Source: Nevskia sp. (lineage in GTDB: Bacteria > Pseudomonadota > Gammaproteobacteria > Nevskiales > Nevskiaceae). Taken from it: DNA of 32,074 nucleotides. Where the stretch lies: assembly GCF_023266035.1 (NCBI RefSeq), contig NZ_JAHFRY010000037.1, positions 1-32,074 of the forward strand. Direction: 5' to 3'. The notes beneath the pieces were generated by a model, which had not been told where the DNA came from, made no database searches, and saw nothing but the letters and a program-made list of their open reading frames with translations. Made by a program: the position numbers and the translations under genes. The first letter of the stretch is position 1, and each line of letters opens with the position of its first letter. Positions 3,030 to 5,265 of this stretch are shown one piece after another.

Positions 3030-3110
3030 GGCTAACCTTAGGAAGGTCTGGCAGGGGGACAGGAGCGTACTGCGCCGCAACAAGAATGCCAAGACCACAC
3101 AACCATATTT

Positions 3111-3173
3111 AATTGGGGTCAGATACAGATTGATTTCGCATGACGCCAGCCCGCATTTAAATTAGGGACAGAT
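3111..3173. repeat. Paired AATT(G/A)GGG(T/A)CAGAT motifs flanking the transposase
   Basis: The 14-mers at 3111-3124 and 3160-3173 match at 12 of 14 positions in the same orientation. From memory, very similar GGGGTCAGAT strings are common beside Y1-type transposase genes in proteobacteria, so I infer they belong to the transposase unit ending at 3231. No counterpart is visible on the other side of the gene. Confidence 0.5.
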
Positions 3174-3182
3174 TTAAATCTG
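3169..3182. repeat. Perfect 14-bp palindrome CAGATTTAAATCTG
   Basis: The sequence CAGATTTAAATCTG is its own reverse complement and overlaps the second CAGAT motif. It lies about 50 bp downstream of the transposase stop codon. It could be an end-recognition hairpin for the transposase or a transcription signal; the sequence alone does not decide. Confidence 0.5.
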
Positions 3183-3230
3183 TTGTTAACTATTTGTTTG
3201 AAGCTGAAATGTGCCGAATCTGAGCGCCGG

Positions 3231-3926
3231 TCAACCCGGCTTTTTCAGTGCTGGACGTCCGGCACGACCGCGCGTGGTCCGACGATCGGTCTGCACTTCG
3301 ATCTGTTCGAGAAAAGAACGATCGCCCAATGCCCAGCCTTTGAGCGTTGCATCGGTGAGCTGCGCCTGCTGATCAAGCGCGACACCTTGCTGCACCAGAT
3401 CGGCGTAAGCCGCTTCGCGCGCGAACGGCGTGTTGCCGAGCGCCCAGCACAGCGGATGCGGCGTCAGCAGCCGATCCTGATGCAGCCCGATGTAATGGCG
3501 ATGGCTGGACCAGCGCCAGTCGGCCGCTTTCGTCACCAGCCCGGCGCGCACCGGATTGAGATCGATGTAGGCCATGCAGGCCAGCAGGTAGCGATCGGTC
3601 TGCACCAAAGTGGCGCGATAACGCCCTTCCCAGAGCGTGCCGGTGCGCACGTGGCGCCGGTTGAAGATCTGCACGTAACGCCGGCCGAGCGCCTGCATCA
3701 TCAGCGGCAAGCCCTTGTCGGTAGCCGGCGTGGCCAGCAGATGAAAATGGTTGCCCATCAGCACCCAGGCATGGATCGCCACCTTGTGCTTCGTCGCGTA
3801 TTCGCTGAGCAGACCGAGCAGGGTTTCCCGGTCCTGATCGTCGACGAACACCGGCTGGCGGTTGTTGCCGCGCTGGATGACGTGGTGCGGATAGCCGGGG
3901 ACGGTCAGGCGGGGGAGGCGGGCCAA
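3231..3926 (-). CDS. REP-associated tyrosine transposase (Y1/HUH, RAYT type)
   Basis: This single-domain protein of 231 residues belongs to the IS200-like Y1 transposase superfamily, which cuts single-stranded DNA at hairpins. The N-terminus MARLPRLTVPGYPHHVIQRGNN is typical of RAYT proteins. The HUH metal site is seen as MGNHFHLLAT (His60, His62), and the candidate catalytic tyrosine lies in GRRYVQIFN (Tyr84). AYIDLNPVRAGLV is a further family hallmark. The start is a TTG at 3926, chosen because a GGAG sits 8 nt upstream and the protein aligns from there. The gene appears intact. It sits between dgt and gltB, 35 bp past a duplicated dgt tail and close to two hairpins that could be its REP-like substrates. 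RAYTs are usually domesticated single-copy genes; whether this one is mobile is unknown. Confidence 0.93.
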   Translation of the reverse strand: MARLPRLTVPGYPHHVIQRGNNRQPVFVDDQDRETLLGLLSEYATKHKVAIHAWVLMGNHFHLLATPATDKGLPLMMQALGRRYVQIFNRRHVRTGTLWEGRYRATLVQTDRYLLACMAYIDLNPVRAGLVTKAADWRWSSHRHYIGLHQDRLLTPHPLCWALGNTPFAREAAYADLVQQGVALDQQAQLTDATLKGWALGDRSFLEQIEVQTDRRTTRGRAGRPALKKPG

Positions 3927-3961: not shown

Positions 3962-4015
3962 TCACCGAAGCTGCCTCAAGTCGTAAAGCCTCGCATGCTC
4001 ATCCTGCGCATAGCG
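3962..4015 (-). repeat. Duplicate of the dgt 3' end (17 codons plus stop)
   Basis: Aligned codon by codon to 4117-4170, this 54-bp stretch differs at nine positions spread over seven codons. Every difference is synonymous, including Leu TTG/CTT and Arg CGC/AGG, so both encode RYAQDEHARLYDLRQLR and end in TGA. The longest identical run is 17 bp, at 3999-4015 and 4154-4170. Similarity stops abruptly after that run. This is either the original dgt tail displaced by an integrated element, or a remnant of a second allele. Confidence 0.9.
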
Positions 4016-4120
4016 GTGGCGACGCGAGCCACCGAGCGGGCCCCACGCGCTGTTGGCGTGGGTGCGAGCAAGGCGAGTCGGCGCCGGATCGCGGGCCAGT
4101 AACGGGGGCTGCGTCATCAT
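3962..4120 (-). CDS. Possible small ORF (52 aa) ending in a copy of the Dgt C-terminus
   Basis: The frame opens with two ATG codons (4120 and 4117) overlapping the dgt TGA, so a ribosome ending dgt could restart here. It runs 52 codons to a TGA at 3962-3964. The first 35 residues are rich in Arg, Pro and Ala and are translated from hairpin-containing DNA. The last 17, RYAQDEHARLYDLRQLR, are identical to the C-terminus of Dgt. It is shorter than typical annotated genes and I know of no homologue. It may be only the chance fusion of element DNA to the displaced dgt tail. Evidence for translation is positional only. Confidence 0.3.
   Translation of the reverse strand: MMTQPPLLARDPAPTRLARTHANSAWGPLGGSRRHRYAQDEHARLYDLRQLR
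4015..4062. repeat. Two adjacent REP-like hairpins
   Basis: Hairpin one has arms GGTGGC (4015-4020) and GCCACC (4028-4033) around a 7-nt loop. Hairpin two has arms CCCACGC (4042-4048) and GCGTGGG (4056-4062) around a 7-nt loop. Both stems are perfect. Paired short GC-rich palindromes next to a RAYT gene are the expected form of a REP/BIME element, but I cannot confirm that the unit is repeated elsewhere in the genome. Confidence 0.5.
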
Positions 4121-5265
4121 CGCAACTGCCTCAAGTCATACAGGCGCGCGTGTTCATCCTGCGCATAGCGATCGGTCATCCCCGCCACGTAATCCGCCAC
4201 CACCCGCGCCTGACCGGTCTCGCCGGCCGTCGCTGCTGCCGTGCCCGCTGCGGCATGAAACTCGGGCGGCAGCAGGCGGATGTCGGCATGCAGCGCTTCG
4301 AACAGTTCGCGGACGATGCGCCGGGCCTTGTGCATCACCCGATAGACTTGGTGGTGGCTGTACAGGTGCTCGCTGAGGTAGCGCTTCAGGTCGCGGTTGT
4401 CGCGCTGCATCGCTTCGCTGAACGAGACCAGCGGTTTGCTATGGCTGCGCACGGCGTCGATATCGGCCAGTTCCTGCTCGGCCAGACGCCGCGTGGTTTC
4501 GCTGTGCAGGTCGATGACCAGTGCATTGATCATCCGGCGGATCGTTTCGTGGCGCAGCTGGCGCGGCGTCAAGGCGGTGTAGCGCGCCGTGACTTCGGCG
4601 TGGAAGCGCGCGAACAGTGGCACTTCGCACATCTGCTCGATCGTCAGCAGGCCGGCGCGCAGGCCGTCGTCGACATCGTGATTGTTGTAGGCGATCTGGT
4701 CGGCGATGTTGGTCAGCTGGGCTTCGAGGCCGGGCTGATGCTTGCTCAGGAAGCGCTCGCCGACATCGCCGAGCGTCGCCGCGCGGCTCTGCGAGCAGTG
4801 CTTGAGGATGCCCTCGCGGGTCTCGAAGGTGAGGTTCAGGCCGCGGAACTCGGCGTACTTGTCTTCCAGTTCATCGACCACCCGCAGGCTTTGCGCGTTG
4901 TGCTCGAAGCCACCGTGCGCTTTCAGGCAGTCGTCGAGCGCGTCCTGGCCGGCGTGGCCGAACGGCGTGTGCCCCAAGTCATGCGCGAGGGCGATGGTTT
5001 CGGCCAGGTCCTCGTTCAGATGCAGGCCGCGGGCAAGGCTGCGGGTGATCTGGGCGACTTCCAGCGAATGGGTCAGGCGATTGCGATAGAGATCGCCTTC
5101 GTGACTGACGAAGACCTGGGTCTTGTACTCGAGCCGGCGGAACGCCGCCGAATGGATGATCCGATCGCGATCGCGCTGGTATTCACTGCGGCCCTGCGGC
5201 GGTGCTTCGGCGTGGCGGCGACCTCGCGAGCGATCCTCGCGCGCGGCGTAGGGCGCGAGCGTCAT
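4117..5265 (-). CDS. dgt: Deoxyguanosinetriphosphate triphosphohydrolase-like protein
   Basis: This HD-domain enzyme of 382 residues hydrolyses dNTPs to nucleosides and triphosphate. It matches the Dgt-like family of moderate length (about 380 residues, shorter than E. coli Dgt). The metal-binding set is visible as NRLTHSLEVAQ (His66) and IALAHDLGHTPFGHAG (His95, Asp96, His99, His104). The start ATG overlaps the aroB stop as ATGA, and the N-terminal REDRSRGRRHAEAPP segment is typical. The C-terminus RYAQDEHARLYDLRQLR is repeated just downstream with only silent changes, suggesting the 3' end has been replaced or duplicated. The last gene of the pil-aro-dgt run, it is probably translationally coupled to aroB. 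Function is inferred from family; substrate preference cannot be read from the sequence. Confidence 0.95.
   Translation of the reverse strand: MTLAPYAAREDRSRGRRHAEAPPQGRSEYQRDRDRIIHSAAFRRLEYKTQVFVSHEGDLYRNRLTHSLEVAQITRSLARGLHLNEDLAETIALAHDLGHTPFGHAGQDALDDCLKAHGGFEHNAQSLRVVDELEDKYAEFRGLNLTFETREGILKHCSQSRAATLGDVGERFLSKHQPGLEAQLTNIADQIAYNNHDVDDGLRAGLLTIEQMCEVPLFARFHAEVTARYTALTPRQLRHETIRRMINALVIDLHSETTRRLAEQELADIDAVRSHSKPLVSFSEAMQRDNRDLKRYLSEHLYSHHQVYRVMHKARRIVRELFEALHADIRLLPPEFHAAAGTAAATAGETGQARVVADYVAGMTDRYAQDEHARLYDLRQLR

Follow-up and report, generated by a model that had tools for sequence, protein, structure and literature searches.

The dGTP triphosphohydrolase gene dgt of a Nevskia species ends twice: a second copy of its last codons lies behind the gene in the 32,074-nucleotide stretch of DNA analyzed here (the window; contig NZ_JAHFRY010000037.1, positions 1 to 32,074). 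The locus thus raises the question of how this copy arose and why it still reads as the same peptide. A repeat search of the window delineated positions 3962-4015 and 4117-4170 as a direct repeat of 54 nt with 83% identity and a spacing of 155 (BLAST E 8.7e-10). Both tails encode RYAQDEHARLYDLRQLR followed by a stop, the last 17 codons of dgt. In the dgt frame, 9 of the 54 bases differ (2, 0, and 7 at the three codon positions) without changing a residue; the two other frames tested on the same pair gave 7 and 9 residue changes. The preliminary description, made from the sequence alone, had reported a duplication with only silent differences and an abrupt end of the similarity; both observations were borne out, the similarity stopping gene-inward after 17 identical bases. 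A chance repeat was ruled out by the BLAST E-value, the silent-only changes, and the control windows. In the order in which they follow each other on the minus strand, from dgt through the spacer and the second tail to a transposase gene, the features of the locus are:

4117-5265, minus strand: dgt, dGTP triphosphohydrolase (NCBIfam NF002326, 587 bits, cut-off 390; Pfam HD and HD_assoc)
4117-4170, minus strand: copy B, the tail that belongs to the dgt frame, comprising the stop and the 17 codons before it (repeat search, frame comparison)
4016-4116, no strand: imperfect palindromic element of 101 bp between the dgt tails, with the model core at 4017-4089 on the plus strand (covariance model R1, 86 bits; the model was built from 11 sequences that include this copy)
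3962-4120, minus strand: predicted 52-codon mini-ORF, whose ATG overlaps the dgt stop (ATGA) and which crosses the palindrome to terminate together with the second tail
3962-4015, minus strand: copy A, the second dgt tail, with 9 silent changes in 54 bases (repeat search, frame comparison)
3231-3926, minus strand: REP-associated tyrosine transposase gene (NCBIfam NF047646, 88.5 bits, cut-off 80; Pfam PF01797), 35 bases from copy A

Two of these features go beyond the preliminary description: the 101-bp spacer is a dispersed palindrome, and the 52-codon frame starts on the dgt stop and stays in frame with the second tail across the whole palindrome. The transposase gene is not evidently part of the dgt unit, because the same gene lies directly behind dgt in unit-free relatives too. 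It holds this unusually fixed place in several genera (G021, G032, Stenotrophobium G028, and Nevskia). Behind it, at 3098-3190 of the window, two AT-rich stretches that look alike by eye, AATTGGGGTCAGATACAGATT and AAATTAGGGACAGATTTAAATCTG, may mark the terminus of the transposase element.

Comparison of the dgt locus with eight close relatives (Dgt 85-98% identical) revealed empty, single, and tandem alleles. The preliminary description had proposed to align the locus with genomes that have a single dgt end, and such empty sites were found: dgt ends once in six of the eight relatives, directly before the transposase gene in five of them (G002, G010, G015, G014, and G011) and before another gene in G016. 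Units are present in the other two, with a double end in G005 and three tails in tandem, plus a third, weak palindrome, in G008; in both genomes, a frame similar to the mini-ORF of the window starts at the gene stop, crosses the palindrome, and reaches the next tail. A dgt unit was also found in Solimonas (G077), where the 44-bp repeat carries 8 base changes and no residue change. Comparison of the tails with those of relatives gave a less simple picture. The dgt end of the unit-free sister G010 has 4 differences to the fused tail of the window and 7 to the second tail, contrary to a simple replacement. The proposed search of the window's own genome (G000) for further copies of the spacer yielded contigs C53 and C212 (rlmN) and a weak match on C183 (argG, E 0.06).

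Palindromes bounded by copies of gene ends

A DNA search of the genus located the spacer sequence at other places, some again at a spacing of about 150 bp. The covariance model R1, built from 11 palindrome copies, matched 62 places in 17 of 18 Nevskia genomes at a low copy number (0 to 11 per genome), and it overlooks some copies, such as that of G010 argG. At E up to 0.01, matches were present in 43 of 58 genomes of the family Nevskiaceae; at E up to 0.001, the count was 40 of 58, compared to 1 of 27 genomes from other families of the order. Within the order, the palindrome is found almost only in Nevskiaceae. The motif GACG (CGTC on the other strand) was seen, uncounted, at the left end of several copies. 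A typical unit pairs a gene-end copy (mostly 35-80 bp) with an imperfect palindrome some 75-100 bp in length. Total unit length ranged from 95 to 168 bp and was mostly 130-165 bp, and tandem units occur. The lengths of the repeats vary by site from about 25 to 90 bp, and no short target duplication of fixed length was seen.

Long direct repeats (score 19 or more) flank 37 of 63 Nevskia palindromes (29 of 53 loci), compared to 9 of 1650 control windows drawn at random from the loci searched, and no flanking repeat was detected at the other 26 palindromes at this threshold. Among palindromes with a model score of 40 or more, 25 of 31 in the genus are flanked. The 63 palindromes were obtained from 65 entries after removal of two duplicates of places already counted (L047 and L057); they leave out L050 (G000 argG, a weak match) and some weak matches outside the loci analyzed, e.g., G006:C63. 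In the family set, repeats flank 26 of 33 palindromes (17 of 20 loci), a proportion biased upward because these 20 loci were hand-picked with a preference for tandem matches. Two palindromes without a detectable direct repeat lie between lolC and lolD, as read by eye (L038 1495-1570 in G002 and L048 1501-1575 in G000); in the former, a short frame bridges the stop of the first gene and the start of the second.

The repeated segments are the ends of rlmN, argG, dgt, dcd, smpB, htpX, metF, glyQ, and rsxA and the starts of tsaB, the transhydrogenase beta subunit gene (pntB), a permease gene, and a reductase gene, the last three named from family matches below the curated cut-off. The host gene keeps its reading frame at the repeat-bounded palindromes. 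In five Nevskia arrays (G014 rlmN, G014 tsaB, G017 permease, G008 argG, and G008 htpX), n palindromes alternate with n+1 copies. Of the Nevskia loci examined, G008 argG (L084 2044-2714) has the longest array, with four palindromes and five tails in tandem. An assembly artefact is unlikely, as repeat-flanked units occur in genomes of 2 (G019), 6 (G016), and 10 contigs (G002); no weight was placed on two cases in G004 that reach contig ends (L091 and L097).

At other genes, too, the changes were mostly silent. Across 34 copy pairs compared in the gene frame, 219 base changes were accompanied by 30 residue changes, compared to about 148 under random placement; in three groups, 12, 11, and 7 residue changes were seen, compared to 84.7, 35.9, and 27.3. 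The test omits identical pairs (G005 pntB, G004), inner array pairs, G014 argG (in which the second tail has lost its frame), the rlmN pairs of genus g11 (several of them decayed), and the family loci L155-L157, L160-L163, L165, L167, L169, and L173. Gene conversion alone was rejected on this count, as it would by reasoning be expected to give many residue changes in an untranslated copy.

Some units bear a further mark at the palindrome end. In 13 of 45 units, the palindrome is followed by at least 7 nt that are reverse-complementary to the end of the repeat, compared to 2.0% of 1862 mismatched pairs. These inverted end copies span seven genes, including Solimonas dgt (9 nt); 5 of the 13 come from rlmN units and do not count as independent cases. 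The dgt unit of the window has an inverted copy of only 4 nt, without a clear mark, and in G000 argG the hairpin reaches into the host gene by 11 such inverted bases. Of three hairpins folded, that of G000 argG was strong (z -5.3), and those of the window (z -1.5) and G015 rlmN (z -1.3) were weak.

Tail types at argG and rlmN

The argG locus offers an empty site for comparison. In the unit-free G002, the gene runs ...GCGCGCTAA|GCTCAGCTAG, with a TAA stop before GCTCAGCTAG. In G000 and G010, tail 1 (TGA) is fused to the gene and is followed by the palindrome, tail 2 (TAA), and the same flank as in G002. Tail 1 of G010 departs from G002 at 11 of its 78 bases, compared to 6 of the 222 bases ahead of the tail (Fisher p 0.0006). 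Within the final 57 nt, the G002 tail has 5 mismatches to tail 2 of G000 and 10 to tail 1 of G000. Since the stop, a residue, and the flank are shared with the unit-free sister, the downstream tail would be the native one in G000 and G010. For G010, whose tail 2 is 10 bases from the G002 tail and no nearer to it than tail 1 is, the assignment as native would follow only from the TAA stop, a threonine, and the flank. In G014 argG, the second tail is without an intact frame. The tails of two unit-free genomes, G002 (L262) and G015 (L261), differ by 17.9%, compared to 2.8% in the 72 bases before, which is perhaps the footprint of lost units. As unit-free argG tails are themselves sharply divergent, divergence alone cannot mark a tail as foreign.

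For rlmN, we surveyed 30 loci of the family; 14 have a single tail, and 16 have at least one additional tail, with the repeat starting at almost the same point. At all 16 multi-tail loci, the reading frame of the additional tail extends uninterrupted to beyond the gene stop, and an ATG or GTG lies at that stop. The unit lengths 149, 152, 158, 161, and 164 are 2 mod 3, as in 18 of 19 units, the exception being 165 (G012). Between clades, first tails have a mean of 5.8 differences (6 pairs) and unit-free tails a mean of 12.5 (2 pairs; 12.0 over 4 pairs with G005), and the mean between first tails and unit-free tails of their own clade is 13.8 (8 pairs; 12.4 over 10 pairs with G005). The single tail of G005 was kept out of the unit-free group, being of the unit-bearing type: it has 5 to 9 differences to first tails and 10 to 15 to unit-free ones, the state expected after the loss of a unit.

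The last tails retain the other type to different extents. That of G016 is nearest to the tail of the unit-free sister G011 (9 differences, compared to 16 to its own first tail); the 16 base differences between the G016 tails change no residue, and the change of type sits at the repeat start. In G000, the last 39 nt of the second tail are identical to the tail of the unit-free G010. The last tail of G014 is 6 from its own first tail and 13 from G011, with only the last 15 bases of the native type. Between the unit-free tails of G002 and G010, 9 of 75 bases are different. Over the 120 bases that precede the tail, G000 and G010 differ by 10%, compared to 2.6-4% further up, and the unit-free G002 and G010 differ there by 7.5%. 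In genus g11, second tails gather residue changes (G075 and G067). In G008 (L113), Q is replaced by S ahead of the stop in both tails alike, a pattern expected from gene conversion or a recent re-duplication.

Origin of the second gene ends

We think it probable that the dgt locus of the window holds a unit belonging to a family of small, palindromic mobile elements in Nevskiaceae that supply genes with new ends. As judged by tail comparison, argG (G000 and G010) and rlmN (G016 and, by the last part of the tail, G014 and G000) show a fused tail of another type than that of the sister and a downstream tail that matches the type or the flank of the sister. The fused tail would then have arrived with the unit, and the downstream tail would be the old native end. 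The same replacement may have taken place at dgt in the window, where both tails would have been working dgt ends until a recent exchange; we propose that the displaced tail was functional until then, which would explain why all differences are silent. Units would cross between species at the same gene through recombination inside the short tail, and they would be lost by recombination between tails. The weakest step is the first colonization of a new gene, which might occur when DNA synthesis switches to the palindrome, snaps back on the hairpin, and restarts upstream; a snap-back in which the hairpin copies its own foot would yield the inverted end copy, and the upstream restart would yield the long repeat. 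Because the unit-free tails of argG (G002/G015) and rlmN (G002/G010) diverge too, either tail exchange is not tied to the units now present or the odd unit-free tails would be sites of lost units. More tentatively, and with less confidence than doubt, we suggest a class of mobile cassettes, each made of a palindrome and the terminal codons of a housekeeping gene, that have no enzyme of their own, spread between species by end replacement, and colonize new genes by hairpin-primed template switching in which the end of the new gene is copied afresh.

The preliminary description had likened the locus to site-specific elements that integrate at the 3' end of a gene and supply a replacement tail, with an enclosed element of only about 155 bp. 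This holds in outline, for a dispersed element does lie between gene ends, the tails of argG and rlmN agree with such a replacement, and the unit is about that size; at dgt itself, either tail may be the native one, and the unit encodes no recombinase. Recombination between dgt alleles, named there as the main alternative, may be how units pass between species. As the sole cause, it would make the locus a scar left by homologous recombination of transformed DNA, with the palindrome as a passive REP, an explanation that we hold to be somewhat unlikely. The exchanged tails of unit-free species (argG of G002 and G015) speak for it, as does the elevated divergence between G000 and G010 just before the rlmN tail, although the unit-free G002 and G010 diverge there as well. 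However, the architecture of a palindrome between copies recurs at more than 10 genes in several genera, and the stretch of the other type is about unit-sized in G010 argG and G016 rlmN.

Alternatively, both tails may be old, and the second may have been kept by selection, either as the C-terminus of the mini-ORF protein or because the mini-ORF couples translation to the next gene. The frames agree with this idea: the start overlaps the gene stop and the frame reaches the next tail at dgt of the window, G008, and G005, the same open frame occurs at 16 of 16 multi-tail rlmN loci, 18 of 19 rlmN units are 2 mod 3 in length, and the 16 differences between the G016 rlmN tails leave every residue intact. 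In contrast, several downstream tails are nearer to the unit-free type than this idea predicts, namely, at rlmN, the last tail of G016 and the terminal parts of those of G014 and G000 and, at argG, tail 2 of G000. The 2 mod 3 pattern also does not hold throughout for units elsewhere (argG 145, 146, 152, 153, 157, and 168; smpB 131 and 141). Selection on the mini-ORF as the sole cause is further weakened by the decay of second rlmN tails in g11; we keep it as a rival, although an unlikely one. Movement of the palindrome by the REP-associated transposase is suggested by the gene lying 35 bases from copy A, but we regard it as improbable, since that gene also stands behind dgt where the palindrome is absent and nine palindrome-bearing genomes of the family, some incomplete, gave no Y1 transposase match (G003, G004, G017, G018, G019, G061, G069, G072, and G074). 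Finally, the palindrome could be the folded recombination site of an integron-like cassette moved by an integron integrase of the genome. IntI (TIGR02249) scores above the cut-off in 10 of 18 Nevskia genomes, including the window's own, where it lies outside the window (G000:C189:668-1612, 467 bits), and units do form tandem arrays. The attC core motifs are RYYYAAC and GTTRRRY; 0 of 28 units have both of these motifs, compared to 1 of 560 shuffled sequences, and palindromes occur in G016 and G002, which have no IntI above the cut-off. We consider this explanation very improbable.

Comparison with known systems

A literature search found no printed description of gene-end palindrome units, with subscription papers mostly beyond its reach. 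Among the nearest known systems are REP and REPIN sequences, palindromes with a GTAG or CGTC tag at one end. The accessible parts of the published accounts describe them as short, dispersed, imperfect palindromes, often just past stop codons, some of them overlapping coding regions (PMC3733652, PMC3116915). The family of the window shares the dispersed, short, imperfect palindromes. It differs in its few copies per genome, long local gene-end repeats, and gene-end copies of differing ancestry, features absent from those parts of the REP and REPIN accounts, and it would differ in having no steady link to a transposase: such a gene is adjacent at dgt, but the nine palindrome-bearing genomes gave no Y1_Tnp match. 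Palindrome families of the CGTC type are described, in the part of the source available, as having no linked transposase (PMC3733652). The palindromic elements of Rickettsia, presented there as being of the CGTC type and inside coding sequence (PMC3733652), lie inside proteins, whereas the units described here leave the frame of the host protein intact and provide an additional gene end. Classical MITEs differ in their short target duplication of fixed length, as opposed to a repeat of about 25 to 90 bp by site. Integron gene cassettes resemble the units in their small size with palindromes, their tandem arrays, and the IntI gene in the genome; the units differ in lacking the attC cores in all 28 cases and in having the end of the host gene as their content. 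The presence of defined sites with known empty alleles makes the movement of REP-type palindromes testable, and two tails of different ancestry provide a natural record of gains and losses of units.

A further parallel is with integrative elements at gene ends. ICEs with ends that correspond to the 3' terminus of the gene they target are known and bring an integrase. According to the accessible part of one account, the end of such an ICE or genomic island is often identical to the 3' end of the gene, which stays whole (PMC3715440). Direct repeats of a gene end lie on both sides here too. However, the unit is about 155 bp in size and has no integrase, the 101 bp between the dgt copies being too short for one, and related palindromes serve more than 10 genes, each with the end of its own gene. 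These differences suggest that the replacement of conserved gene ends, so far tied to large elements with an integrase, is possible with a unit of about 155 bp that serves many genes within one family.
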